A stretch of 64,000 nt of DNA, from positions 6,069,001-6,133,000 of the forward strand of contig NZ_CP080519.1 in assembly GCF_019468465.1 (NCBI RefSeq), in the 5' to 3' direction. Positions 11,103 to 59,131 of this stretch are shown here, piece by piece. This stretch comes from Amycolatopsis sp. DSM 110486 (lineage in GTDB: Bacteria > Actinomycetota > Actinomycetes > Mycobacteriales > Pseudonocardiaceae). The translations under genes and the position numbers were made by a program. The notes beneath the pieces were generated by a model that was given only the letters and a program-made list of their open reading frames with translations, made no database searches and was not told where the DNA came from. Numbering within the stretch: position 1 is the first letter of the stretch; each line of letters starts with the position of its first letter.

Positions 11103-12497
11103 TCAGTCGTCGATGCGGCCGCTGATCCGGCCGCTGCCGGAGTGCGCCGGGGTACGGCTCTTGCGGCTGTCCCAGTAGTCCTTGTTGTCCTCGTGGTTGC
11201 CGCGGGACTCCTCGACGCCGTCCTTCACGGAGTCCTTGATGTCGCCCACGTCGCCGGCGATGTCGGAGGCGTTGTCCTTGATGTCGCCGACGTCGCCCGC
11301 GATGCCCTTGCCGATGTCGATCACGTCGGAGACGCTGCCGACGTCCTTGATCTTCGCCAGCTGCGACCCGATGTCCTTCACCGAGTTCCACAGGTCGCCG
11401 ACCTTCTGCACGATGTCCTTGATCATGTCGATGATCGAGATCAACGAGTTGATGAGCGGCAGGATCTCCGACAGCCCGGTGATCGCGTCGGCGATCCACC
11501 CCGCGATCGGCACGCACGCCTCGGCCGCCATCACCAGCAGCCGGTCGATCAGGCTCTTCAACAGGTCGAGCGCCTTGGCCGCCAGCTTCTGCGACGTGTC
11601 CGACAGCAGCTCGAACCCCTTGGCGATCAGCTCCGCGATCCCGGCCTCCGCGGCCAGCCCCGCGCGCCATCCGAGGTCCACGTACGCCTTGTGCGCCAGC
11701 GACGCCGGGCCCGACCAGCTGTCGCCGAGGATCTTCTCGTTCCCCACCATCACGGTCGAGAACGCCTTCATCGCCTCGGCGATGTTGCGCCACGCCTCGG
11801 CGTCGGCGGAGATCTTCGAGAAGTCACCCGTGATCGGCTCGATGAACATCTGCGTGAGCGTCTGGCCGGTGATCTGCTGGAAGATCCACTCGACCGCCAT
11901 GACCTCCACGCCGGCTTCCTTGACGAGGTCCTGGATGTCCTCGCCGGACGTGTCCTCGGGCGGCTGGAGCTGTTCGCTGATCGAGCTGCCCTCGTCGAAC
12001 CCGCTCGGCGATGTGGCGGCAGCGCCCGGATCCCCGCCTGACGACGACGGGGAATCGCCACCGTCATCGGAGTCGTCGTCCGAGTCGTCGTCTTCGTCCT
12101 CTTCTTTCTTCTTCTTAGGCTTTTCCTCTTCTTCATCATCATCGTCATGGTCGGGCGGTTCCGGAGGCGGACCGCCGGAACCGCCGTGCCCGCCGGGACC
12201 AGGAGGGTCGGGCGGACCGCCGGAACCGCCGTGGGGAGGGTCGGGCGGGGGCCACGGACCACCACCTCCGGGAGCTACGCGAGGACCATCCTCTTCACCG
12301 TGTGGTTGGGGTGAGCCACTGTGTCCTCCGGCCGGCGTGCCGGGGGTGTGCTGCTGCGGCGGCGAACCCGGCCGGTTCGGCGGCGTGTTCGGGTGCGGCG
12401 GCGGTGTGTTCGGGTGCCCTTGCTGGGGCGTGGCAGGGTGCGTCGGCGTGTGGTGCGTCGTTCCGCCGGACCCGCCCGGGTGGCTGTGCCTGGCCAT
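11103..12497 (-). CDS. Large WXG-like type VII secretion-type protein with Pro/Gly/His-rich and acidic N-terminus
   Basis: 464 residues in three parts. Residues 1-115 are Gly/Pro/His/Thr repeats. Residues 115-160 are a charged tract of Asp and Glu runs interrupted by KPKKKK. From about 190 the protein is helical and contains a WxG-type turn (GDSWSGPASLA) after a long helix, as in WXG100/PPE-like secreted proteins. The C-terminus repeats IAGDVGDIKD twice and ends in a charged tail. The helical region AACVPIAGWIADAITGLSEILP is hydrophobic and could touch membranes. It lies 41 bases downstream of an EspC-like gene. Export through an ESX system is inferred; no ESX core genes are in the window. 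Confidence 0.7.
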   Translation of the reverse strand: MARHSHPGGSGGTTHHTPTHPATPQQGHPNTPPPHPNTPPNRPGSPPQQHTPGTPAGGHSGSPQPHGEEDGPRVAPGGGGPWPPPDPPHGGSGGPPDPPGPGGHGGSGGPPPEPPDHDDDDEEEEKPKKKKEEDEDDDSDDDSDDGGDSPSSSGGDPGAAATSPSGFDEGSSISEQLQPPEDTSGEDIQDLVKEAGVEVMAVEWIFQQITGQTLTQMFIEPITGDFSKISADAEAWRNIAEAMKAFSTVMVGNEKILGDSWSGPASLAHKAYVDLGWRAGLAAEAGIAELIAKGFELLSDTSQKLAAKALDLLKSLIDRLLVMAAEACVPIAGWIADAITGLSEILPLINSLISIIDMIKDIVQKVGDLWNSVKDIGSQLAKIKDVGSVSDVIDIGKGIAGDVGDIKDNASDIAGDVGDIKDSVKDGVEESRGNHEDNKDYWDSRKSRTPAHSGSGRISGRIDD

Positions 12498-25252: not shown

Positions 25253-26755
25253 CTACTCGCGCGGGGAGAGGTCGCCGTTCGACAGCGCCTGCTCCGAGCC
25301 CGTGGGGGCCGACGGCTTCGAGGGGCTGCCCATGGCGTCCATCAGCTGGCGGGCCAGGCCGAGGCCCGTACCGCCGAGCGACAACGCCTTGGTGAACATG
25401 TCCGACATCCCGTCCGCGCCGTTCAGGACCACCATGTGGTCGACGTTACCGAACGCCTTCGCGCCGGCCTCGACGATTTCCGGCCAACGTTCGGCCAGCT
25501 GTTGTGCTACCACAGCTTCCTGGTTCTCCGCCAGTGCCGCGGCCCGCGCCTTGATGGATTCGGCCTCCGCCAGACCGCGAGCCCGGGCCGATTCGGCCTC
25601 AGCGAGACCCCGCGCCTTCGCGGCTTCCGCCTCCGCCAGACCGCGAGCCTGGGCGGCCGCCGCCTCGGCCTCGCCGGTGGCGCGCGTGGCCCCCGCCGAC
25701 GCCTCGGCCCGCGCCTTCGTGGCCTGGGCCTCCGCCTCGGCGGCCGTCTTCACGCGCGTTGCGTCGGCCGCGGCCCGCAGCTCGGTCTCCTTGGCCTCGG
25801 CCTGCGCGCGGGCGATCTGGGCGTCGCGGTCGGCGTCGGCCGTCGTGCGCGTCTCGTACGCCTTCGCGTCGGCCGGCTTGCGGACCTGCGACTGCAGCCG
25901 CTGCTCGGCCAGCGCGGCCTCCAGCTCGGCCGCCCGAGTCTCCTGGACCACGACCTCCTGCCGCGCCGTCGCCTCGGCCAGCGGGCCCGACTGGCTCGCC
26001 TTCGCCTTGGCCTGGTCGACCTCGGCCTGGTAGCCGGCCTGCTTGATCTGGCTCTCCCGCATCGCGCCCGCCTTCTGCGCGGCGGCCACCTGCTCGGCCT
26101 GCGTGGCCTCCTGGTCGCGCTGCGCCTCGGCGATCCGGGCCGAGGCCGCGATGGCCGCGGCGTGCGGCTTGCCCAGGTTGAGGATATAGCCGGACTCGTC
26201 GTCGATCTCCTGGATCTGCAGCGAGTCGACGATCAGGCCCAGCTTGATCATCTCCGTGGCCGACGACTGGCGGACCTCGCCGGTCAGCGCGTCGCGGTTG
26301 TGGATCATCTCCTCGATGGTCAGCCCGCCCACGATCGAGCGCAGGTGGCCCGAGAACAGCTCGTGGATGGTGTCGTTCATGCCCTTCTGCTGGTCGAGGA
26401 AGCGGCGGGCGGCGTTGGCGATCGAGGCGTAATCGTCACCCACCTTGTAGATCACCACCGCCCGCACGGTCACGGGCAGGCCCTGCTTGGTCACGCAGGA
26501 CACCTGGAGGTTGACGCCGCGCGTGTCGAGCGAGAGTCGCCGGGCGGTCTGGAAGCCGGGGATCACGTTGACGCCCCGGCCGGTCACGATCTTGAACCCG
26601 AGGCTGTCGGCGGTCTCGGTGCGCTCCACCCGGATCCCCCACCCGGAGATGATGAGCGCTTCGTTCGGCTCCGCGACCTTGTACAGGATTCGCAGAAGCC
26701 CGAAGAGCACGATCACGGCTACCACCGCGATCACGACGATGAGCCAGATTTCCAT
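25253..26755 (-). CDS. Flotillin-family (SPFH) membrane scaffold
   Basis: 500 residues from ATG 26755 (MEIWLIVVIAVVAVIVLFG), chosen over an upstream start because GAGGGG precedes it and the membrane helix should be N-terminal. A single membrane anchor covers residues 3-24. The SPFH/PHB domain follows (EPNEALIISGWG, GVNLQVSCVTKQGLPVTVRA, VRQSSATEMIKLGLIVDSLQ). A long Ala/Glu coiled coil contains the repeat ARGLAEAE several times, and the end is glycine-rich and flexible. Flotillins organise membrane microdomains and often pair with an NfeD-type protein, as here, where the NfeD-like gene lies 47 bases upstream. Confidence 0.93.
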   Translation of the reverse strand: MEIWLIVVIAVVAVIVLFGLLRILYKVAEPNEALIISGWGIRVERTETADSLGFKIVTGRGVNVIPGFQTARRLSLDTRGVNLQVSCVTKQGLPVTVRAVVIYKVGDDYASIANAARRFLDQQKGMNDTIHELFSGHLRSIVGGLTIEEMIHNRDALTGEVRQSSATEMIKLGLIVDSLQIQEIDDESGYILNLGKPHAAAIAASARIAEAQRDQEATQAEQVAAAQKAGAMRESQIKQAGYQAEVDQAKAKASQSGPLAEATARQEVVVQETRAAELEAALAEQRLQSQVRKPADAKAYETRTTADADRDAQIARAQAEAKETELRAAADATRVKTAAEAEAQATKARAEASAGATRATGEAEAAAAQARGLAEAEAAKARGLAEAESARARGLAEAESIKARAAALAENQEAVVAQQLAERWPEIVEAGAKAFGNVDHMVVLNGADGMSDMFTKALSLGGTGLGLARQLMDAMGSPSKPSAPTGSEQALSNGDLSPRE

Positions 26756-48661: not shown

Positions 48662-50017
48662 TCAGGCCCGGAACACGAACACCCCGCCGTCCTCGCCGTG
48701 CCGCGGCCACCCCGGGTCACCGGTCGTGGCGAAAGCCACCCACGCCGCCTGCACCCGATCCGCCAGCTCACGCGGCGGCGTCGGCCCTTCGAGGCCGGAC
48801 AACCCGAGGTTGCCGAACACGAACCCCAGCTCCAGCCCGTGCGCCGCGCCCACACCGGGCAACGGCGAGGGCCACGCGAACTCGTACACGAAAGCCGGCC
48901 GCGCCCGGGCGATCTCCGCGACCGGACGGCGGAACAGGGCGTCGGTCAGCACGTCGGCGTAGAGCTCGACCGGCGTGGTCCCTTCAGGAGCGGCTTCGAC
49001 CGCAAGACCCAGCTGCCCCAGTAGCTCCGTCACGTCCGAGTGCGAAACACCGTCCGGAAGTGACGCGCCGGCCAGCGCCAGCAGCTCGTCGGCGTTCGTC
49101 CCGATCAACAGATCCACCCCGCCGCCGCGCACGACCACGTCGAACGGCGGTTCGGCCAGTACCTCCCCGTCCACCACCGGCAGGAACGGCTGCGCGGCGG
49201 CCACGGTCGTCGCACCCCAGCGAGCGGGGTCGAGGTCGGCCGTGAGGTCCGCGACGGCCGCCGTCGACAGCGCGGCGAGCTGCTCCGGCTCGACGCGCGC
49301 GAACCCCGCCGCCGTCGGCTCCACGCCGGCCGCGCGGGCGATCTCGCCGGTGACCAGAAGCGCGTCGGACGCGGAAAGCGCGGCCCGCGCGCTGGCACTC
49401 TGCACGATCGCCCGCCGGAACAGGCCGCGGTCCGTCGCCACGTGCGCCAGCGTCGCGCCCGCGCCCGCCGACGTACCGAACAACGTCACCGCGTCCGGAT
49501 CCCCGCCGAACGCCGCGATACTGGAGCGCACCCACTCCAGCGCCGCGACCTGGTCGAGCAGCGCGCGGTTCGCGACCGCGTCCGGCAGCAGCGCGAAGCC
49601 TTCCGCGCCGAGCCGGAAGTTCACCGACACGAACACGACCCCGCGCCGCGCGAAGGCGGCGCCGTCGTAGATCGGCATCGCCGACGAACCGGTGACGTTC
49701 GAGCCACCGTGCAGCCACACCAGCACCGGCAGTCCGGCCGCGTCCTGGTCGGGCGTCCACACGTTGAGGTTGAGGCAGTCCGGCCCCTCGACCACCGGCT
49801 CCGCCAGGAACGAACCCGGCAACGGCACCGAAGGCGCGGTCGGCCCGAACTCGAGCGCGTCACGCACGCCGTCCCACGCCTCCGGCGCGCGCGGCGCCCG
49901 GAACCGCGCCTCGCCGAACGGCGCGGCCGCGTAAGGGATGCCGAGGAACCGCGTGACGCCTTCGCGCACGCTGCCCCGCACCCGGCCGTACGGGGTGGTG
50001 ACGACGGGATCGGTCAT
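48662..50017 (-). CDS. Type B carboxylesterase
   Basis: 451 residues from ATG 50017. Carboxylesterase signatures are GVTRFLGIPYAAAPFGEARF, EGPDCLNLNVWTP, VLVWLHGGSNVTGSS (oxyanion hole) and the nucleophile elbow TLFGTSAGAGATL, where Thr replaces the common Glu before Ser. The acid/base part is degenerate but includes GTNADELLAL and GAAHGLELGFVF with the catalytic His. No signal peptide is visible, so it is probably cytoplasmic. The substrate is unknown. It is separated from the phosphoesterase gene upstream by a hairpin. Confidence 0.88.
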   Translation of the reverse strand: MTDPVVTTPYGRVRGSVREGVTRFLGIPYAAAPFGEARFRAPRAPEAWDGVRDALEFGPTAPSVPLPGSFLAEPVVEGPDCLNLNVWTPDQDAAGLPVLVWLHGGSNVTGSSAMPIYDGAAFARRGVVFVSVNFRLGAEGFALLPDAVANRALLDQVAALEWVRSSIAAFGGDPDAVTLFGTSAGAGATLAHVATDRGLFRRAIVQSASARAALSASDALLVTGEIARAAGVEPTAAGFARVEPEQLAALSTAAVADLTADLDPARWGATTVAAAQPFLPVVDGEVLAEPPFDVVVRGGGVDLLIGTNADELLALAGASLPDGVSHSDVTELLGQLGLAVEAAPEGTTPVELYADVLTDALFRRPVAEIARARPAFVYEFAWPSPLPGVGAAHGLELGFVFGNLGLSGLEGPTPPRELADRVQAAWVAFATTGDPGWPRHGEDGGVFVFRA

Positions 50018-50099
50018 CCCCCCATCGTTACCAGCGCCGGGCCCGCACCGGGGCGCGGCTGCCCGAATCGCCAGGGATTCCTGTCCCGAACGCACGAAC

Positions 50100-50128
50100 C
50101 CCCGGCCGGCGGTGATGCCGGCCAGGGG
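50100..50128 (-). terminator. Hairpin after the phosphoesterase operon
   Basis: CCCCGGCCGGC (50100-50110) pairs with GCCGGCCAGGGG (50117-50128) with one bulged base and a 6-base loop. It sits after the leftward stop at 50154. There is no clear U-tract on the minus strand, so termination efficiency is uncertain. Confidence 0.55.
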
Positions 50129-50153
50129 CCCGTGTCATGACTCAATAAGTGAC

Positions 50154-52898
50154 TCAGCCGTCCGACTCGGCCGACGGGATGTACGCACCCGGCACCTGAT
50201 CCGGCGAGAAGACCTTGTTCTCGCCGGGGTACGGGGTCTTGAACCCGTGCGTCTGGTACCACGTGAAGTGGTTCATCTGCGCGGGGTTGGCGTAGTCCGC
50301 CGTCGCGTTCGGACCGGTGAGGCGCTGGTTCTTCTGCCACGCCGACCACTGCGAAGCGACCTGCTGCTTGTCCGCCGGCACCGCGGTGTCGGGCTGGACG
50401 GACGCGAACTGCGGAGCCACCACGTCCGGACCGCACGACGGCTGCGTCGCGAGGCCGCCCGTGAGCGACGTGCGGTTCGCCACCGCGTTGAACGGCGTGA
50501 GGTTCGGCTTGCTCGTGAACGCACTCGCCATCGGGGTGGCCGCGCTGTCCTTCTGGTTCATCGGCTGGATCCCGAGGATCTGCTCGATCGTGCGAACCAT
50601 CGTGATCTGCGAGTAGTACGTGCTGTCCACGGCACCGTGCTGGGCGTACGGGCTGATGATCTGGATCGGCGCCCGGTGCCCGTCGACGTGGTCCAGCCCG
50701 GCCTGGGAGTCGTCCTCGACCACGAAGATCGCGGAGTCCTTCCAGTACTGGCTGTGTGAGATCGTGTCGACGATCTTGCCCACGGCGAGGTCGTTGTCCG
50801 CGACCTGCGCGGCGGCGTTCGCAGGACCACCGGTGTGGTCACTGGAAAGCCAGAACATGTTCAGGTTCGCGGGACCGTTCTTCTCGAAGTCCTGCTGCCA
50901 GATCTGCTCCCGGTAGACGTCCGGCACGCTGGTGTCGAACTTCGGGAAGCCGTGCACCGACACGTCGTTGAGCGACGGGATCGGCGACGACGACACGAGC
51001 GGGTAGGCGCTGGGCTCACCCGTCGCGGCCATGTTCTTGCTGTCGCAGTACAGGTTCTGCCACGACGCGCCCGAAGGCTTGGTCAGGAACTGCTGGAACT
51101 CGCCGAAGTCGCGGACGGTGTTGCCCGCGGCCTCCGCGCCCGACCACAGCGTGCCGGAGGCCTGGTGGCCCAGCACGTCGTCCTCGGTGTCGTAGCTGCG
51201 CAGGTACTCGCCGGCCGAGGACTCGGTGTACTCCGGGTCGTCGGCCTGCATGAGCCAGTTGTGGCCCTCGGCGGAGTTCGTGCCGATGTCGTACGTGTTG
51301 TCGTACAACCCGAACTGCTGCGTCAGCGCGTGCTGGTTCGGCGTCACGTTCTCGCCGAACTGCGCGAGCGCCGCGTCGCCGTTGCCAGCCGCGATGTCAC
51401 CGAAGACCTGGTCGTAGGTCCGGTTCTCCTTGACGAGCAGGAACACGTGCTTGATCGGGGACGGGTCGCCGAGGCGAGCCGGCACCGGCACGGGCTTCTT
51501 GTTCTTGCCGTTCGCCACCTGGACGGCGTTGTTCGTCCAGCCGTTCTGCTTGAACACCTTCGGCGTGTACGACTTGATCGTCCGGTCGTCGGGCAGCTGG
51601 AAGCGCTGCACGCTGGACGTCGTGTCGTGCGTGCCGTGCCCGGCGGCCGTGGTCGGGCGCTGGGCGTCGATGCCGCGGGTGTTGGACACGACGATGTCCT
51701 TGCCCACCGTGGCGATCGCGGTCGGGAAGTAGTCCGTGGGCAGCAGGCCGATGTAGCTGGCCGGGTCCTTCGGGCTGTCGTACTTGTACACGGCGATCGC
51801 GTTGGCGCGGCCCAGGGTCACCAGCAGGTGCCCGTCCTTGGTGAGCGTGATGCCGTCGGGCTCGTACCCGACTGTGGCCTCGGGCCACGGCTGGGTCGCG
51901 ATGGTCTGGGTGACCTTGTCCTTGCCCGAGTCGATCACGGACACGTTGTTGCTCGACGTGTTCGCGACGAACACCGTGCCGTTGCTGGCGTACACCGCGG
52001 TGGGGTGGAGCCCGACGTTGATGGTGGCCACGGCGGCGGCCTGCTTCGCGGTGTTGATCACCGAAACCGTGCCGGTGGTGGAGGCACCCGTGAACGGGTC
52101 GGCCGGCACCTGGGTGTTGTACGAGTTGATCGTCGTCTCACCGGGGAGCGGCATCCGCCCGCCCTCGTTGCTGACGTAGAGCTTGTTGCCCACCAGCACG
52201 AGGTCGCGCGGCGCGATGCCGGTGTTCCAGCTCTGCTGGACGGCGCCGGTCGACGCGTTGATGGCGACCACGCGGTTCTGGCCGTTCACGGCGGCGTACA
52301 CGACGGCGCCGTCGGGCGAGAACACCGCCTGGGCGACCAGGGCGTGCTTGGGTCCGTCGGCGGGGATCTTGACGGAGACGGGGTTGGCGAGCGAGCCGTC
52401 GGCGTTCACCGAGAACTTGGTGTAGCCGTCGGTCTGGGCGAGCCACAGGAACTTGCCGTCGGGGGAGTACGACGGGCCTTCCTGGCCGACGTCGCTGCCG
52501 GCGATCTTGAGGTTGACCTTCGCCGAGGTGCCGATCAGCTGCTGGACCTTGTAGCTCTTGAGGTCCACGATCGTCAGCGCGGCGTCGCCGTCGGTGGTCA
52601 GCGCGGCGAGGTGCGTGCCGTCCGGGCTGATCTTCGACGCCATGATCTTGCCGTCGTTCACGACCAGCCGGTCGCCGATCGGGTCGAGGTACTGGTCGCT
52701 CGAGACGACCAGCCCGTCCTTGGTGTTCTGGCCGACATGCTGCTGGCCGAACTCCTGCGTCGACGCGGTGCCGATGCCGGAGCCCGTCACGACCAGGGCG
52801 AGCGTGGCGGTTCCGGCGGTGACGAGGCGGATCTGACGCGATCTGCCGGTGCCGGACCTGGCTCTCCCTGCACGCCTGCGGCGGCGTGTTACCTGCAT
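50154..52898 (-). CDS. Exported YncE-like beta-propeller fused to a phosphoesterase (acid phosphatase/phospholipase C type)
   Basis: 914 residues. A basic N-terminus with many arginines precedes a hydrophobic stretch (LVTAGTATLALVVTGSGIGTAS) that looks like an export signal. Residues about 60-440 form a seven-bladed propeller of the YncE/NHL kind with recurring VVAINASTGAVQQSWNTG-like blades. Residues about 480-900 carry the phosphoesterase signature LLVKENRTYDQVFGD, NWLMQADDPEYTESS, VEDDSQAGLDHVDGHR and IISPYAQHG, which provide metal ligands. The architecture equals bifunctional YncE/alkaline phosphatase-family proteins. The start is 4 bases after the ABC permease stop, so the three form an operon. 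The substrate is unknown. Confidence 0.9.
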   Translation of the reverse strand: MQVTRRRRRAGRARSGTGRSRQIRLVTAGTATLALVVTGSGIGTASTQEFGQQHVGQNTKDGLVVSSDQYLDPIGDRLVVNDGKIMASKISPDGTHLAALTTDGDAALTIVDLKSYKVQQLIGTSAKVNLKIAGSDVGQEGPSYSPDGKFLWLAQTDGYTKFSVNADGSLANPVSVKIPADGPKHALVAQAVFSPDGAVVYAAVNGQNRVVAINASTGAVQQSWNTGIAPRDLVLVGNKLYVSNEGGRMPLPGETTINSYNTQVPADPFTGASTTGTVSVINTAKQAAAVATINVGLHPTAVYASNGTVFVANTSSNNVSVIDSGKDKVTQTIATQPWPEATVGYEPDGITLTKDGHLLVTLGRANAIAVYKYDSPKDPASYIGLLPTDYFPTAIATVGKDIVVSNTRGIDAQRPTTAAGHGTHDTTSSVQRFQLPDDRTIKSYTPKVFKQNGWTNNAVQVANGKNKKPVPVPARLGDPSPIKHVFLLVKENRTYDQVFGDIAAGNGDAALAQFGENVTPNQHALTQQFGLYDNTYDIGTNSAEGHNWLMQADDPEYTESSAGEYLRSYDTEDDVLGHQASGTLWSGAEAAGNTVRDFGEFQQFLTKPSGASWQNLYCDSKNMAATGEPSAYPLVSSSPIPSLNDVSVHGFPKFDTSVPDVYREQIWQQDFEKNGPANLNMFWLSSDHTGGPANAAAQVADNDLAVGKIVDTISHSQYWKDSAIFVVEDDSQAGLDHVDGHRAPIQIISPYAQHGAVDSTYYSQITMVRTIEQILGIQPMNQKDSAATPMASAFTSKPNLTPFNAVANRTSLTGGLATQPSCGPDVVAPQFASVQPDTAVPADKQQVASQWSAWQKNQRLTGPNATADYANPAQMNHFTWYQTHGFKTPYPGENKVFSPDQVPGAYIPSAESDG

Positions 52899-52902
52899 GG
52901 GG

Positions 52903-54285
52903 TCATCCCTTCGGGGTGTTGGACAGCAGTTCGACGCTGGCGTCGAACTGCCACAGCGGGTTGGGTTGGTCCCCGATCGGGGTCCGCACCTGGAAGTAGC
53001 CGTTCACTTCCTTCGGCCCGTCGCCGTCGGCGACGAACCGCCCGTCTGAGGTGACGTCGAGCTGGTAGATGGCCTGACCAGTCGCTTCGACGCCGGGGAG
53101 ATGCCAAGAGACGACGCACCGCCAGTCGTTGCCCGGTCCTTCCTGGGCGACGAGGCCGCCGCCCTTCTGGCACTCCGACGTGACGCCGAGCTGGGCTTCG
53201 GTCACGGCGGGGCGGTGCAGTTCGTCGGTCTGCAGGCGGTAGAGGTGCGCGAACGTGGTCGAAAGCGACTGCTGCACTTTGTCCTGCGTCACGCCGGAGC
53301 CGAGCGACGGCGTGGCCACGGCGATCACCGCGAAGGCGACCACGATCAGCCCGACCAGCGGCAGCGCGCCGGCGGTGATCGTGCGGCGGGCCGAGCCGTC
53401 GTAGCTCAGGTTGGTGAAATCGCGGCGCAGGAACAGGAAGTAGGCCAGCGCGGTCGCCACGACTGTCCACACGAGACAGACGAGGATGCTGACGAGCAGC
53501 GGCCCGGCTTGCGCGGGACTGGTGAACAACCCTTCCCACGCGATGAACGAGTACGTCGGCAGCGCGAGCCGCACGGCCACGGGCAGCGGCAGCAGCTGGG
53601 CCACCGCCATCCCGAGCGCGACGACGGCGGGCAGCAGCAGGCCCATCGGCGACCGGCCCAGCGCGACGGACCCGAGCAGCCCGACCGCGGCCAGCGCGAG
53701 CGTCGGGGCCAGCGCGCACACCCAAGCGAGCAGCACCTGACCGGCGGCGGCGCCGGGGGAGAGCAGGTGCCCGTCGAGGCCGACGAGCTGATGGTTGCCG
53801 GCGCCGAGCACTCCGCCGATGATGCTGGACACGGCCAGGCCGGCCACGAGCACGAAGATCACGGTGAGGCTGGCCAGCACCTTGGCCACGAAGATCCGCC
53901 GGTACGAGCGCACGGCCACCAGCAGGTGCCGCCAGGTGCCGAGCCGGTCCTCGGACGCGAACACGTCACCGGCGACCACCGACGTGAGCAGCGGGAGCGC
54001 GTAGCTGCCGGCGAACCCGAGCATCACGAGTGAACCCGCCCAGCCGGTGGCGTTCATCCAGCGGCCGAAGACGGTGTCCACGGGCAGGTCGCTCTGCTGG
54101 CTCACCGCGGCGACGAACAGCGCCGGGGCGATCCAGCAGGCGAGCACCAGCAGGCGGACGCGCCACTGGGAGACGAGTTTGACCAGCTCGAAACGGTAGC
54201 CGCGGGCCACCGAGGCAGGTGCTTCGCGTGCGGTCGGGGTTTCCGGTGTGCCCGGCGTGCCGGGTTCGGTGAGGGTCGCGGTCAT
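52903..54285 (-). CDS. ABC transporter permease with C-terminal extracytoplasmic domain
   Basis: 460 residues from ATG 54285, overlapping the ATPase stop (ATGA). After a Thr/Pro-rich N-terminus come about six membrane segments of ABC-2 type (VRLLVLACWIAPALFVAAV, LPLLTSVVAGDVFASEDRLG, the last near LYFLFLRR-like ALAYFLFLRRDF). A further hydrophobic segment GALPLVGLIVVAFAVIAV leads to a soluble domain of about 130 residues (about 330-460) containing a Cys pair (TSECQKGGG and DWRCVVSW) and ending in a beta-rich part. Fusion of such a domain to an ABC-2 permease is uncommon; it may face the outside near the secreted phosphoesterase. Confidence 0.82.
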   Translation of the reverse strand: MTATLTEPGTPGTPETPTAREAPASVARGYRFELVKLVSQWRVRLLVLACWIAPALFVAAVSQQSDLPVDTVFGRWMNATGWAGSLVMLGFAGSYALPLLTSVVAGDVFASEDRLGTWRHLLVAVRSYRRIFVAKVLASLTVIFVLVAGLAVSSIIGGVLGAGNHQLVGLDGHLLSPGAAAGQVLLAWVCALAPTLALAAVGLLGSVALGRSPMGLLLPAVVALGMAVAQLLPLPVAVRLALPTYSFIAWEGLFTSPAQAGPLLVSILVCLVWTVVATALAYFLFLRRDFTNLSYDGSARRTITAGALPLVGLIVVAFAVIAVATPSLGSGVTQDKVQQSLSTTFAHLYRLQTDELHRPAVTEAQLGVTSECQKGGGLVAQEGPGNDWRCVVSWHLPGVEATGQAIYQLDVTSDGRFVADGDGPKEVNGYFQVRTPIGDQPNPLWQFDASVELLSNTPKG

Positions 54286-55247
54286 CGAGCGGACTCCTGC
54301 TGCTGAGACGCGGTTTCGGGCGCCTCTTCGGATTCGGTGAGGGCGAGGAACGCGGCTTCCAACGGGGACACCACGGGCGCGAGCTCGCGAAGGGCCACGC
54401 CCGCGTGGACGAGGCGCACCACGAGGTCGTCGAGAGCGGGCACCAGCGCGCGCACCACGAGGACACCACTGTCCTTTCCGGACTCATCGCCGAGCCGGAT
54501 GCCGGGGGTTTCGGCGGCGAGCTTCCGCGCGGACTCGCGATCGGAAGTCACGAGCCGGTAGTCGAGCTCCTGGCTCTCCGAAGAGAGCTTGCCCAGCGGG
54601 CCGGTGAAGACGACGCGGCCGGTCGCGATGATCGTGACCTCCGAGCACAGCGCTTCGAGGTCGTCCATGCGGTGGCTGGACAGCACGACGGTGGCGCCTT
54701 CGGCCGCGAGCCGCTTGAGGACCCCGTGCACGTGCTTCTTGCCGGCGGGGTCGAGGCCGTTGGCGGGCTCGTCGAGCACGAGCAGCCGCGGGCGGGTGAG
54801 CAGGGCGGCGGCGAGGCCGAGCCGTTGACGCATGCCGAGGGAGAAGCCGCGCACGCGGTCGTCGGCGACGTCGGTGAGCCCGACCTGGGCGAGCGCGTCG
54901 TCGATGTCGGCGGTGCGGGTGTCTCCGCCGCGCAGGGCGGCCAGCGCGGCGAGGTTCTTCCGCGCCGTGAGCGAGGGGTAGAGGCCGGGGCCGTCGACGA
55001 ACCCGGCAACGCCGCCGGGAGCGTCCAGGGTCCGCCCGACGGGCGAGTCGAGGATCTCCAGGCGGCCCTCGTCCGCGACGGCGAGGCCCAGCAGCAGACC
55101 CAGCAGCGTGGTTTTGCCCGCGCCATTCGGCCCGGCCACTCCGTGGATCTGCCCCTGGGCGACGTCGAGATCGATTTCGTCGAGCGCGACGACTTCGCCG
55201 AAACTTTTGGTGATTCCCCGAGCCCGGACTGCCAGAGGTGTGTCCAT
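54282..55247 (-). CDS. ABC transporter ATP-binding protein
   Basis: 321 residues. Walker A is GPNGAGKTT, the Q-loop region and signature SLGMRQRLGLAAALL follow, Walker B is LLVLDEPANGLDP and the H-loop is VVLSSHRMDD. It looks like the DrrA/CcmA group of export-type ATPases. It couples ATP hydrolysis to the permease encoded next. First gene of the operon; its promoter lies in the 171-base gap up to 55418, which holds an imperfect repeat. Confidence 0.94.
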   Translation of the reverse strand: MDTPLAVRARGITKSFGEVVALDEIDLDVAQGQIHGVAGPNGAGKTTLLGLLLGLAVADEGRLEILDSPVGRTLDAPGGVAGFVDGPGLYPSLTARKNLAALAALRGGDTRTADIDDALAQVGLTDVADDRVRGFSLGMRQRLGLAAALLTRPRLLVLDEPANGLDPAGKKHVHGVLKRLAAEGATVVLSSHRMDDLEALCSEVTIIATGRVVFTGPLGKLSSESQELDYRLVTSDRESARKLAAETPGIRLGDESGKDSGVLVVRALVPALDDLVVRLVHAGVALRELAPVVSPLEAAFLALTESEEAPETASQQQESAR

Positions 55248-55375
55248 GGTCCCTTTGCTTTCGTCGTGAAACGTGCGTCAGGAACTTAGGGACAGCAAAT
55301 TAATCTCGAACCGGTGCCGGGTGAACGATCGGGGAACGGGGCTCGGACGAAACAAGTCGCACTCGTGGATTGTCC

Positions 55376-55417
55376 GAGTTAAATCGTGATCTTGCCTTGA
55401 GTTAACTGTCACCTTGC
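55376..55417. repeat. Imperfect direct repeat upstream of the ABC operon
   Basis: GAGTTAAATCGTGATCTTGC (55376-55395) and GAGTTAACTGTCACCTTGC (55399-55417) share GAGTTAA and CTTGC ends at a 23-base period. They lie about 130-170 bases upstream of the ABC start and directly after the amidohydrolase stop. This is a possible regulator site; the local AT content is higher than the surroundings. Confidence 0.4.
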
Positions 55418-55418
55418 A

Positions 55419-56396
55419 TTAGGAGAGCCGGAACAGGGCTCGCGCGTTGTCCCTGCCGATCTTGCGACGGTCGGGTTCGTTCAGGGGTGCGGAGTCGAAC
55501 CAGCCGGCCGCGTGGTCGACGTTTTCGAACGGCCAGTCGGTGGAGAAGAGCACGCGATCGGCGCTGAGTTCCGACATCGCGGCGAGCAAGGACTGGGTGT
55601 GGAAATTGCCGGACGTCGTCACGTAGAAGTGCTCGGTGAAGTATTCGGTGATCGGCCGTGCGGCGGGATAGGGGAGCGCGGCATTGGTCCATTTGTTGTG
55701 GTGGTCGATCCGCCAAAGGGAGTAGGGCAGACCTTCGCCGAGATGACCGAGAATGATGGTGACACCGGGGTGGCGGTCGAACAGCCCCGACGCGGCCAGG
55801 CGCAGTGCGTGCACCGCCGTCTGCTGGCCGAACGCCCAGGCCGGGCCGAGCAGCCACTCGTGGCCGGCGTACACGCGGGCGTCCTGCGGCAGCGGGTTGC
55901 GCGGGTGCAGGTAGAGCGGCACGCCGAGGCGTTCGACCTCGGCCCAGAACGGCAGGTACTCGGGGGTGTCGTAGTAGGTGACGGTGCCGGCGTCGTCGAG
56001 CTCGGTGAAGCTGTTCACGAGCGCGCCGACGAACCCGAGCTCCGTGACCGCGCGGCGCAGCTCTGCCGTCGCGAGGTCCGGGTCCTGCAGCGGCAGTGCG
56101 GCGAACCCGCGGAACCGGTCGGGCCGCGCGGCGACGTGCTCGGCGAGGGTGTCGTTGGCGCGCCGGGCGAGCTCGGCGGCCTTCATCGCGTCCGGGATCC
56201 CTTGCACGGCAGGGGAGTTGAGCGACAGCAGCATCAGCTCGATGCCGTGGGTGTCCATCAGGCGCAGCCGCTGGCCGTCGAGGTCGAGCAGGCGGGCGCG
56301 CAAGGTGGGCCACAGCGCGGGAGGAGCGTAAGGCTCGGAGTCGCCGAGTGTGTCCTCGGTGGCGAAGTGTTCTTCGAGGGCGATCTTGCCGTCCAC
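55419..56396 (-). CDS. Amidohydrolase-2 decarboxylase, gamma-resorcylate decarboxylase-like
   Basis: 325 residues from GTG 56396. The N-terminus DGKIALEEHFATEDTLGDS is very like gamma-resorcylate (2,6-dihydroxybenzoate) decarboxylase, including the metal-binding Glu-x-His. Further ligands are in LYLHPRNPLP, ILGHLGEGLPYSLWRIDHH and LFSTDWPFENVDHAAGWF. The length equals that family. It should remove (or reversibly add) a carboxyl group on a phenolic acid in the cytoplasm with a divalent metal. It lies 19 bases after the membrane protein gene and downstream of the IclR gene, so aromatic-acid catabolism is the likely context. Confidence 0.87.
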   Translation of the reverse strand: MDGKIALEEHFATEDTLGDSEPYAPPALWPTLRARLLDLDGQRLRLMDTHGIELMLLSLNSPAVQGIPDAMKAAELARRANDTLAEHVAARPDRFRGFAALPLQDPDLATAELRRAVTELGFVGALVNSFTELDDAGTVTYYDTPEYLPFWAEVERLGVPLYLHPRNPLPQDARVYAGHEWLLGPAWAFGQQTAVHALRLAASGLFDRHPGVTIILGHLGEGLPYSLWRIDHHNKWTNAALPYPAARPITEYFTEHFYVTTSGNFHTQSLLAAMSELSADRVLFSTDWPFENVDHAAGWFDSAPLNEPDRRKIGRDNARALFRLS

Positions 56397-57037: not shown

Positions 57038-57071
57038 TCCACTTATGTGCAGCGAGTTTACGAAAAGTGGA
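57038..57071 (-). promoter_or_regulatory. 34-bp element, copy 1 (before membrane protein/decarboxylase genes)
   Basis: Read on the minus strand it begins TCCACTTTTCGTAAACTCG and ends TGCACATAAGTGGA. Its ends form the inverted pair CCACTT/AAGTGG. It matches copy 2 at 58059-58092 at 29 of 34 positions in opposite orientation, and lies 20 bases before GTG 57018, where a repressor would block transcription. Confidence 0.7.
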
Positions 57072-57150
57072 TAACGGTGTCCAGGGGTGGGCGCGCTCGG
57101 GCGACGACCGGCGTGCTTTTGGGTGGTGTGGCTGAGGATTCGGGCTGGGG

Positions 57151-57945
57151 TCAGCCGGCCGCGGGGCCGCGTCCGCCGAGCTCTGCCGACGCGGCGGTGG
57201 TCGTGCGCAGCAGTTCCTCGGTGGCGCTCGCGACCTGCTCCGGGCTCGCGTGGCCGACGGGCATCGCGAGCGCGACGGCCAGCGGCAGCGGCGTGGCCTC
57301 GGAGAACACGGGGGCGGCGACCGTGGTGACGCCGGGGATCATGGCGTCCGTGGTCACCGCGGCGCCGGAGCGGCGGACGTCGCGGATGACGCGGGTGAGC
57401 TGGGCCGGCGAAGGGACTTCGGGTGCCGCGCCGGGGTCGAAGTCGCCGCGCAGGACGGGGGCGGTGATCGTCTCCGGCAGGTGGGCGAGGAAAACGCGGC
57501 CGACCGACGTGGACATCAGCGGCAGGATCGCGCCGACCCGCACGGTGATCGGCAGCACGTGGGAGCCGTAGTGCCAGCCGACGATGACCGGCCCGTGGTC
57601 GCCCCACACGGCGAGGTTCACGGAGTGGCCGGTCCGGTCGCGCAGGCCCGGCAGGTGCTCGGAGACGACCTCGACCTCGTCCATGCGCCGCAGCGCTTCC
57701 ATGCCGAGGCGGCGCAGTGCGGGGCCGAGGTCGTAGCGGCCGGAGTTCGGCGACTGCGCGACCAGGCCTTCTCGCGACAGGCTGACCAGGTAGCGGTGCA
57801 CCTTGCTCGGCGCCATCCCGCTCGCCTCGGCGACCTGCTTGAGGCTCATGGGACCCGGGCCCTGCTCGAGGGCGCGCACGACCGTCATCGCGATCTCGAC
57901 CGACTGGATGCCCTGGCGGTCGTCTTCGGGTTCCCGGGCTGCCAC
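57151..57945 (-). CDS. IclR-family transcriptional regulator
   Basis: 264 residues from GTG 57945. The N-terminal winged helix contains QSVEIAMTVVRALEQGPGPM, SLKQVAEASGMAPSKVHRYL and REGLVAQSPNSGRYDLG. The effector domain follows (GHSVNLAVWGDHGPVIVGWH, VGAILPLMSTSVGRVFLAHL, AAVTTDAMIPGVTTVAAPVF). IclR regulators typically sense aromatic acids or glyoxylate and act on catabolic operons. The 34-bp element occurs on both sides of this gene, once before the downstream membrane/decarboxylase genes and once in its own divergent promoter region. Confidence 0.93.
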   Translation of the reverse strand: MAAREPEDDRQGIQSVEIAMTVVRALEQGPGPMSLKQVAEASGMAPSKVHRYLVSLSREGLVAQSPNSGRYDLGPALRRLGMEALRRMDEVEVVSEHLPGLRDRTGHSVNLAVWGDHGPVIVGWHYGSHVLPITVRVGAILPLMSTSVGRVFLAHLPETITAPVLRGDFDPGAAPEVPSPAQLTRVIRDVRRSGAAVTTDAMIPGVTTVAAPVFSEATPLPLAVALAMPVGHASPEQVASATEELLRTTTAASAELGGRGPAAG

Positions 57946-58058
57946 GTTCTGGACTATACGGCCGGTCCGGTGCCGGACCCGGTGGGGTGAGCCGCCTCGG
58001 CGAGCCGTGGTCTGCCCTTGTGTACGGCGGTGGTTCCCGGGCGCACCTCGACAACTCG

Positions 58059-58092
58059 TCCACTTTCCATAAACTCGATGCAGATAAGTGAA
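58059..58092 (+). promoter_or_regulatory. 34-bp element, copy 2 (IclR / NTF2-like divergent promoter)
   Basis: On the plus strand it starts TCCACTTTCCATAAACTCG and ends TGCAGATAAGTGAA. It differs from copy 1 (reverse complement of 57038-57071) at five positions. It lies between IclR GTG 57945 and the Tat-protein GTG 58130, so it can control both. See copy 1. Confidence 0.7.
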
Positions 58093-58129
58093 TTCTGTGG
58101 CCGCGCGGGCGGCCCACGAGGAGGTAGTG

Positions 58130-59131
58130 GTGAACGAGCGGAATCTGGGTCGCCGGGCGTTGCTCAAGGGTGTCGCGATCACCGGGGCCGCGGCGGCAGT
58201 CGCGACGGTGCTGCCGGCGGGGACCGCGGGCGCGGCTTCTCGGGGGTATGGCTCGGGTGGGGGTGTGCGGCAGGTTCCCGGCATCGGCACGGTCATCGAC
58301 ACCTCCCACGCGACGCCCGGCGTCTCGCGGGTGCTCAGCGCGTACTTCCTGGCCAAAACCGGGAAACAACCCGAAGCGACGATGGCGCAGATCAACCGCG
58401 CGCAGATGAACTACCTCGACGCCGTGACCGGCGAGATCTGGCCGTCGTGGCAGTCGCTGCACGATCTCTTCGCGAAGAACATGCCGAAGTGGCCCGCCGA
58501 CGGGAAGTCCTACGCCACGCGCATCCTCGGCGACGACCGCAGCGCGATCGTCTTCTTCTCCAACACCCCCGGCCTGTTCGCGCCCGGCGAGATCCGCGCC
58601 ACCGGCGTGGTCAACCTGCAGGGCGGCAGGATCGCGCGCTGGGTCGACTACTGGGACGGCCGCCACGTCGGCATCGACTACGTGCGCGGCAAGCGCGAGC
58701 CGTTCCCGGCGGATTTCAAGGAGGGGACCGTCGGCGAGACGGCCGCCTCCGTGATGCGCCGCGCGGTCGACGGCCTCGCCGGCGCGCTGGCCACCGGCGC
58801 GTCGACGCGGCAGTTCTTCGCGGAGGACGCGGTGTTCGAGGACGTCGCGGCGCACGTGTTTCTCGTGGGCCCGGCCGCGATCACGCGGTTCCTGACCTCG
58901 GCGCGTGACCTGCTCCCGTACGCCGGCCCGGGCTCGGCCGTGCGCCACACCTTGGGCGGCGCGCTCGGCGGCGGGTACGAGTGGACCTCTCGCGGCCCCG
59001 CGCCCCACGGCGTCACCGGGCTCGAGCTCGACGCGCGCGGCCTGATCACGCGCGCGACCGCCGTCTGGGACGGCTCCTTCGTCGACGACGCGACGCTCGC
59101 CGCATTGGCGCAGAAGGCGGTCGAGCACTGA
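58130..59131 (+). CDS. Tat-exported protein with two NTF2/SnoaL-like domains
   Basis: 333 residues from GTG 58130, chosen because GAGGAGG lies just upstream; an in-frame GTG at 58088 overlaps the 34-bp element. The N-terminus is a twin-arginine signal (GRRALLKGVAITGAAAAVA ending TAGAAS). The mature part appears to contain two SnoaL-like folds. The first ends in VNLQGGRIARWVDYWDGRH. The second contains FFAEDAVFEDVAAHVFLVG and LDARGLITRATAVWDGSF. Such domains bind or isomerise small hydrophobic molecules. Divergence from IclR and the shared element suggest a role outside the membrane in the same aromatic pathway; the reaction is unknown. Confidence 0.72.
   Translation: MNERNLGRRALLKGVAITGAAAAVATVLPAGTAGAASRGYGSGGGVRQVPGIGTVIDTSHATPGVSRVLSAYFLAKTGKQPEATMAQINRAQMNYLDAVTGEIWPSWQSLHDLFAKNMPKWPADGKSYATRILGDDRSAIVFFSNTPGLFAPGEIRATGVVNLQGGRIARWVDYWDGRHVGIDYVRGKREPFPADFKEGTVGETAASVMRRAVDGLAGALATGASTRQFFAEDAVFEDVAAHVFLVGPAAITRFLTSARDLLPYAGPGSAVRHTLGGALGGGYEWTSRGPAPHGVTGLELDARGLITRATAVWDGSFVDDATLAALAQKAVEH

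Follow-up and report, generated by a model that had tools for sequence, protein, structure and literature searches.

The window, a 64,000-nucleotide stretch of contig NZ_CP080519.1 from Amycolatopsis sp. DSM 110486, contains a small gene cluster in which a gene for an IclR-family regulator lies between two copies of a 34-bp element, which we call O1 and O2 (Table 1). O1 reads TCCACTTTTCGTAAACTCGCTGCACATAAGTGGA on the minus strand (57071-57038) and O2 reads TCCACTTTCCATAAACTCGATGCAGATAAGTGAA on the plus strand (58059-58092). Direct reading of the sequence bore out the original prediction that the two copies agree at 29 of 34 positions and share their ends and the core TAAACTCG, as well as its placement of O1 before the membrane protein/decarboxylase genes and of O2 between iclR and an NTF2-like gene. 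The copies are inverted because the genes behind them are transcribed divergently; relative to its own gene, each has the same orientation. O1 ends 19 nt ahead of GTG 57018, the likely start codon of the membrane protein with AAGGAG upstream, and no ribosome-binding site was seen for the longer frame from 57042 that overlaps O1 by 5 nt. O2 lies 37 nt from the likely start of the NTF2-like gene and 113 nt from that of iclR.

Table 1. Genes, elements and predicted promoter boxes of the iclR locus, in window coordinates.
Feature	Position	Strand	Remarks	Basis
Amidohydrolase-2 family decarboxylase, gamma-resorcylate decarboxylase homologue	55419..56396	minus	Pfam PF04909	
Small helical membrane protein, 200 aa	56416..57018	minus	six predicted helices, two short	
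Operator O1, 34-bp element (candidate)	57038..57071	minus	precedes membrane protein/decarboxylase operon	sequence
O1 half-sites	57071-57067, 57061-57057, 57051-57047, 57042-57038	minus		sequence
Predicted promoter over O1	57055..57083	minus	-35 TGGACA 57083-57078, 17-bp spacer, -10 TAAACT 57060-57055	
iclR, IclR-family regulator	57151..57945	minus	likely start GTG 57945	inferred start
Predicted promoter over O2	58048..58075	plus	-35 TCGACA 58048-58053, 16-bp spacer, -10 TAAACT 58070-58075	
Operator O2, 34-bp element (candidate)	58059..58092	plus	between iclR and NTF2-like gene	sequence
O2 half-sites	58059-58063, 58069-58073, 58079-58083, 58088-58092	plus		sequence
NTF2/SnoaL-like protein, probably Tat-exported	58130..59131	plus	likely start placed from GGAGG 58120-58124	inferred start

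The iclR product matches both domains of its family, PF09339 HTH_IclR at 56.8 bits (cut-off 22) and PF01614 IclR_C at 66.8 bits (cut-off 24), and its helix-turn-helix region is highly conserved in 8 orthologues. The stop codon of the membrane-protein gene is followed after 19 nt by the decarboxylase gene, whose product aligns over residues 1-324 with residues 1-324 of PDB 2dvt (E 2.1e-146) and also matches 3s4t (E 4e-146); these alignments clearly make it a homologue of gamma-resorcylate decarboxylases. For the membrane protein, neither Pfam nor NCBIfam gave a match and no similar solved fold was found, the best Foldseek match of its AlphaFold model (mean pLDDT 81) in the PDB having an E of 2.1. 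Histidines and tryptophans are conserved in its family of roughly 200-aa proteins, of which 15 were found at E≤0.001 in 5.8 billion; the closest relative, from Amycolatopsis sp. NPDC047767, is 97% identical. The NTF2-like protein matches SnoaL_2 and a TAT-target model weakly, with scores under the cut-off.

Rarity of the element and its distribution across genomes

When every 34-mer of the window was compared with every other without gaps, three inverted, non-overlapping pairs emerged at 29/34 or better, namely O1/O2 and one other locus pair, 13675-13676/42853-42854, which appears in two registers, together with direct repeats at 29/34 or better in 22 registers from three locus pairs that score as high or higher. 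Because these other pairs score as well or better, 29/34 identity alone is not unique in so GC-rich a window, and the length of non-coding identity, offered in the original prediction as the sign of an operator, is weak when taken by itself; conservation across genomes is what settles the matter. The same scan picked up short direct repeats of up to 30/34 at 25543-25658 and 11227-11308, with spacings of 66 and 42. Across the 10.98 Mb of the genome, O1 and O2 are the only places that fit the shared pattern when up to 3 mismatches are allowed, and a reversed-pattern control gave 0 matches in the same genome. A sequence model built from nine sites, O1 and O2 included, found only these two at E≤10 among the best 150 of 541 first-look candidates in its own genome, and thus no third site. 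A looser pattern of the boxes alone with free spacers, drawn after seeing the sites, matched twice in the window against 0.03 expected.

We sought the membrane protein in 249 genomes of the family (6 matches) and in the genome_contigs set (2 loci), and scanned every position of 11 loci on both strands with the window copies O1 and O2 as the only queries. The sister species G010 (locus L010) has its top match, 33/34, before the membrane-protein gene; three genomes of one other genus (L020, L021 and L022) have matches of 28, 25 and 27 of 34 in the same place; and in Actinacidiphila guanduensis (L025) a 27/34 match stands before a row of aldehyde dehydrogenase, membrane protein and decarboxylase. 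In all five loci the membrane protein is accompanied by an orthologue or remnant of the regulator, and their other matches reach at most 20. Equivalents of O1 precede the same operon in G010, G134, G215 and G230. Two family loci with a distant membrane protein and no orthologue of this IclR in the locus, L023 (G199) and L024 (G242), reach only 21 and 20 of 34, and L026, with a short distant membrane-protein match only, reaches 22/34 at best. Among the remaining loci, L011 (G056) has a match of 23 against a next best of 20, the L012 (G052) matches of 25 and 24 exceed a background of 21, and the 23 of L013 (G051) equals its background of 23, so that the latter locus stands out only when scored with the trained matrix, in which L012 and L013 are represented by one site each.

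At the regulator loci of G051, G052, G406 and G603 the element is present and no membrane-protein homologue was detected; taken with the lack of a site at L023 and L024, this distribution shows the element following the regulator and not the membrane gene. G406 and G603 were held out of training and picked by IclR homology, being two of the four genomes with a regulator match at E≤1e-65 among 397 of the order; the other two are the genome studied here and G052. Applied to 16 whole genomes, the trained model gave a match at E≤1 in 9 and none in the other seven (G056, G047, G199, G242, G137, G247 and G220). The best whole-genome match in G406 (E=0.0066, weak alone) lies before an FAD hydroxylase - transporter - iclR row, and that in G603 (E=0.11, weak alone) lies between iclR and an FAD hydroxylase - decarboxylase pair. 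In both, the modelled element points away from the FAD hydroxylase, the reverse of O1 and O2 with respect to their genes; as the element is an imperfect palindrome, it may work in either direction. Across other genera, then, the element stands beside IclR orthologues, and the genes near it are the membrane-protein/decarboxylase operon, an aldehyde dehydrogenase or an FAD hydroxylase.

Weak matches elsewhere, at E 0.26 in G215 and, as a second match, at E 0.98 in G603, look like background, as does a partial, weak match at L052 in G207, a family member of another genus (E 0.026); the model scan of the family gave matches at E≤0.05 in 6 of 249 genomes. Weaker secondary copies were seen at L012:4452-4485 and L013:10824-10857, upstream of FAD hydroxylase genes (L012:4662-6359 and L013:8882-10714), and at L013:17259-17292, which has a perfect TTGACA upstream; the model did not report the secondary G052 and G051 sites at E≤1.

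Within the genus, an orthologue or remnant of IclR was found at E≤1e-30 in 5 of 80 genomes, and the site, at a model E≤0.1 under stricter filters with 88 candidates scored per genome, in four, all of them among those five. Since these four all supplied training sites, the informative part is that the site was found in none of the 75 same-genus genomes in which no IclR orthologue was seen at E≤1e-30. The exception among the five is G056, in which iclR is frame-broken and the site is degenerate (23/34) and went unreported by the model. A class-wide search for the regulator returned, among 394 genomes and with 6 candidates scored in each listed genome, only the own genome at E≤1e-65. No plasmid relatives were found by DNA comparison, and in a search of plasmids with the IclR protein all 1284 records fell below 60% identity.

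These distributions bear on two explanations that would need no operator. That the 29/34 match of O1 and O2 arose by chance could draw on the other locus pairs of the window that score as high or higher, one inverted and three direct, but the conservation of the element before the same operon in other genera, and its presence at two held-out genomes, make this very improbable, and for O1 we reject a chance origin on the strength of that conservation. More improbable again is that the inverted pair marks the ends of a mobile element carrying iclR. One gene flanked by two inverted copies is what such an element would look like, yet other genomes have single promoter copies with no second strong copy across iclR, no further genomic copies were found, and iclR with its short flanks fills the space between O1 and O2; a transposon with terminal inverted repeats was rejected on account of the single promoter-bound copies in other genomes. 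The idea that the two copies are a shared operator of the adjacent IclR protein and mark out a small local regulon has by comparison fared well, the element being both rare in the genome and conserved in relatives with the same genes.

Half-site architecture and promoter placement

The element is composed of four alternating 5-bp half-sites, TTCAC, GTRAA, TGCAC and GTGAA, beginning at positions 1, 11, 21 and 30 and forming two imperfect palindromes whose centres lie about 19.5 bp apart. We derived this architecture from 10 sites (O1, O2, those of G406, G603, G134, G215, Actinacidiphila and G052, and two of G051, one of them the weaker site L013:17259), leaving out the near-duplicates G010 and G230 and the weaker or degenerate sites L011:7724, L012:4452 and L013:10824. 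The 10 sites hold about 42 bits of information over an assumed 70%-GC background, and 1/11/21/30 is the best four-box arrangement, with a score of 21.4, which none of 1000 column shuffles (12.1±1.3) reached. The three best symmetry centres of the 10 sites are 8, 27.5 and 18; centres 8 and 27.5 taken singly fall below the 95% null limit (4.26 and 4.02 against 4.29). The whole 34-mer is an imperfect palindrome too, its symmetry being reached by 14 of 5000 shuffles.

This arrangement can be set against the survey of IclR-family sites by Suvorova and Gelfand (2021; PMC8222616), which describes half-sites of the form TYCRY-W3-4-RYGRA, reports tandem sites 18-22 nt apart in 94 protein groups, explained by tetramers, and places site centres in a zone from -20 to -80 relative to the start. 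The outer boxes of our element, TTCAC/TCCAC and GTGAA/GTGGA, fit TYCRY and RYGRA, the spacing of its palindromes falls within the published tandem range, and its centres, about 36 and about 54 nt before the likely starts, fall inside the published zone. It departs from the group-1 half-site of that survey in the second box, where 6 of the 10 sites, O1 and O2 among them, carry A instead of G, and in the third, TGCAC, which is off by one base; its spacers are 5 bp in the first palindrome and 4 bp in the second, against a published 3-4. As the element is a tandem of two palindromes, two IclR dimers would bind it, together making up a tetramer on one DNA face of each copy.

Both elements overlap a predicted promoter, with TAAACT at element positions 12-17 as the candidate -10 box in O1 and in O2. 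Among the 49 TANNNT places on the two strands of the window, a -35 box with five of six consensus bases stands 16-18 bp away in three cases, two of which are O1 and O2; random window positions satisfy the same -35 criterion in 0.43% of cases. Seven sites, not all independent, have the promoter register of O1 and O2, and six of them carry such a 5/6 box at 16-18 bp; at the G010 site the -35 box has four of six consensus bases. A perfect TTGACA stands 16-18 bp before a hexamer at the element's first bases in two sites of G051 and one of G052, where the element thus has a different offset from the promoter, and the weaker sites L013:10824 and L012:4452 have -35 boxes of 4/6 at best. In this comparison, from which the G406, G603 and G056 sites were left out, the element lies downstream of the -35 box wherever that box is good. 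Covering the -10 box and the start region is the usual place for a repressor. Because the element lies over just these parts of the predicted promoters, downstream of -35, its placement favours repression by occlusion.

We put at roughly 85% the probability that O1 and O2 are operators of the IclR-family protein encoded between them, which would probably act as a repressor. That the protein would bind the same operators as an activator, in the manner of PcaR/PcaU-type members, seems unlikely to us. The family includes activators and dual regulators (PMC8222616), and a published title has PcaR activating and repressing from -35 and -10 elements; here, however, the -35 box lies ahead of the element, which spans the -10 box and start region, and promoters with -35 boxes as good as 5/6 do not look activator-dependent. 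We consider it distinctly less probable that the 34 bp represent no more than a strong promoter common to both copies, or are bound by another regulator, with iclR a bystander. Such an explanation would account for the -35/-10 pair that overlaps both O1 and O2, but not for the symmetric ends of the element and its reach well past the -10 box, nor for the shift of the promoter boxes relative to it in G051 and G052, and the element tracks the IclR orthologue across genera and is absent from the two family loci that have only a distant membrane gene.

Targets, effector and decay in sister genomes

As a repressor, the IclR protein would act through O1 on the operon of the membrane protein and the gamma-resorcylate-type decarboxylase, and through O2 on the putative target encoding the exported NTF2-like protein. 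Occupancy of O2 may also affect the divergent iclR promoter, and autoregulation from a site 113 nt upstream of the likely iclR start is possible. Given the homology of the decarboxylase to gamma-resorcylate enzymes, the signal is likely to be gamma-resorcylate or a related phenolic acid, or else the product of its decarboxylation, and it would probably act on the C-terminal domain of the regulator to release repression. The surroundings of the element in other genomes extend this picture. The cluster of Actinacidiphila is followed by a hydroxyquinol 1,2-dioxygenase-like gene, and FAD hydroxylases occur together with the regulator in G603, G406, G051 and G052, so that a route from phenolic acid via a resorcinol-type phenol to hydroxyquinol appears likely. 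The own genome holds five homologues of the Actinacidiphila dioxygenase elsewhere, four of them at 43-49% identity.

The original prediction had grouped the regulator, the decarboxylase, the membrane protein and the NTF2-like protein in one regulon. This is supported for the side of the membrane protein and decarboxylase and is less certain for the NTF2-like gene, which has the element in the own genome only: homologues at E≤1e-40 occur in 7 of 200 genomes, the own one included, and none of the other six has a site nearby. As its element is seen in one genome only, the membership of the NTF2-like gene depends on a single site; we regard it as the least certain target and reject it as a general member of the regulon. 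That all four proteins serve one pathway is something we infer.

Two sister genomes are consistent with a common fate for these parts. G010, whose flank aligns at 93.5% over window positions 50001-56057, retains only the C-terminal third of iclR and keeps O1 at 33/34; it has lost the region with O2 and the N-terminus of the NTF2-like protein, and carries a truncated membrane protein and a disrupted decarboxylase. Both iclR and the NTF2-like gene are disrupted in G056, where the decarboxylase has left only traces, O1 is degenerate, and neither the membrane protein nor O2 was found at the locus. The decay of the iclR/decarboxylase/NTF2-like cluster by deletions and frameshifts can be followed over L010:5290-7980 and L011:5830-7910, and the flanking ABC-transporter and deformylase genes in both loci still align over nearly their full length. 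Judged by these sequences, regulator, operators and targets are lost together in the two sister genomes.

Taken as a whole, the circuit is probably a real but fairly ordinary case of local control by an IclR-family protein, serving phenolic-acid use. We also consider, with evenly balanced confidence, a wider proposal: that the locus belongs to an undescribed actinobacterial IclR regulog whose own four-box operator controls variable sets of phenolic-acid genes (decarboxylase, FAD hydroxylase, aldehyde dehydrogenase) and a decarboxylase-tied membrane family without recognised relatives, and in which an Amycolatopsis-like lineage captured the exported NTF2-like protein. Our analysis supplies an operator with a precise half-site grammar, its putative regulator and a likely substrate class for one local circuit, so that one protein and two short DNA probes would suffice for a direct test. 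The analysis further connects an unannotated membrane-protein family with phenolic-acid decarboxylation, and the sister species offer an apparent example of the joint loss of a regulator, its operators and its targets.

Relation to known systems

In the open-licence literature, we found nothing closer to a regulog of the O1/O2 type than PMC8222616 and PMC9732521, and no paper on an Amycolatopsis IclR protein with an amidohydrolase decarboxylase or on a Rhodococcus IclR protein with a resorcylate decarboxylase; the main text of PMC8222616 does not mention Amycolatopsis. In Table 1 of that survey, TsdR of Rhodococcus jostii RHA1 is an IclR-family regulator of gamma-resorcylate use with the motif GTGTGRYTSSMRTCAYAC. 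By description, the regulator here resembles TsdR in family and in its probable association with gamma-resorcylate use. The TsdR motif had 0 matches in the window at up to 3 mismatches, with 2.48 expected by chance, and we reject the identity of O1 and O2 with the TsdR operator, given the lack of a match.

The tsdA-containing gamma-resorcylate cluster on plasmid pRLG202 of Rhizobium leguminosarum WSM2304 encodes a decarboxylase 66.7% identical to ours over 100% of the query, clustered with a flavin reductase, an acyl-CoA dehydrogenase-family protein, a maleylacetate reductase and a dioxygenase. Unlike the locus described here, it adjoins a MarR-family regulator, and no homologue of the membrane protein was found at E≤1e-5 in 72,556 plasmid records. 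GylR of Streptomyces clavuligerus, an IclR-family repressor with two footprinted regions that is said to hinder RNA polymerase at its target promoter (PMC9732521), is likened to our regulator by description: both are actinobacterial members of the family, but GylR controls a glycerol operon. In the broader family, as described by Suvorova and Gelfand (2021; PMC8222616), sites adjoin the regulator gene and genes for aromatic acids are common targets, as they would be at O1.
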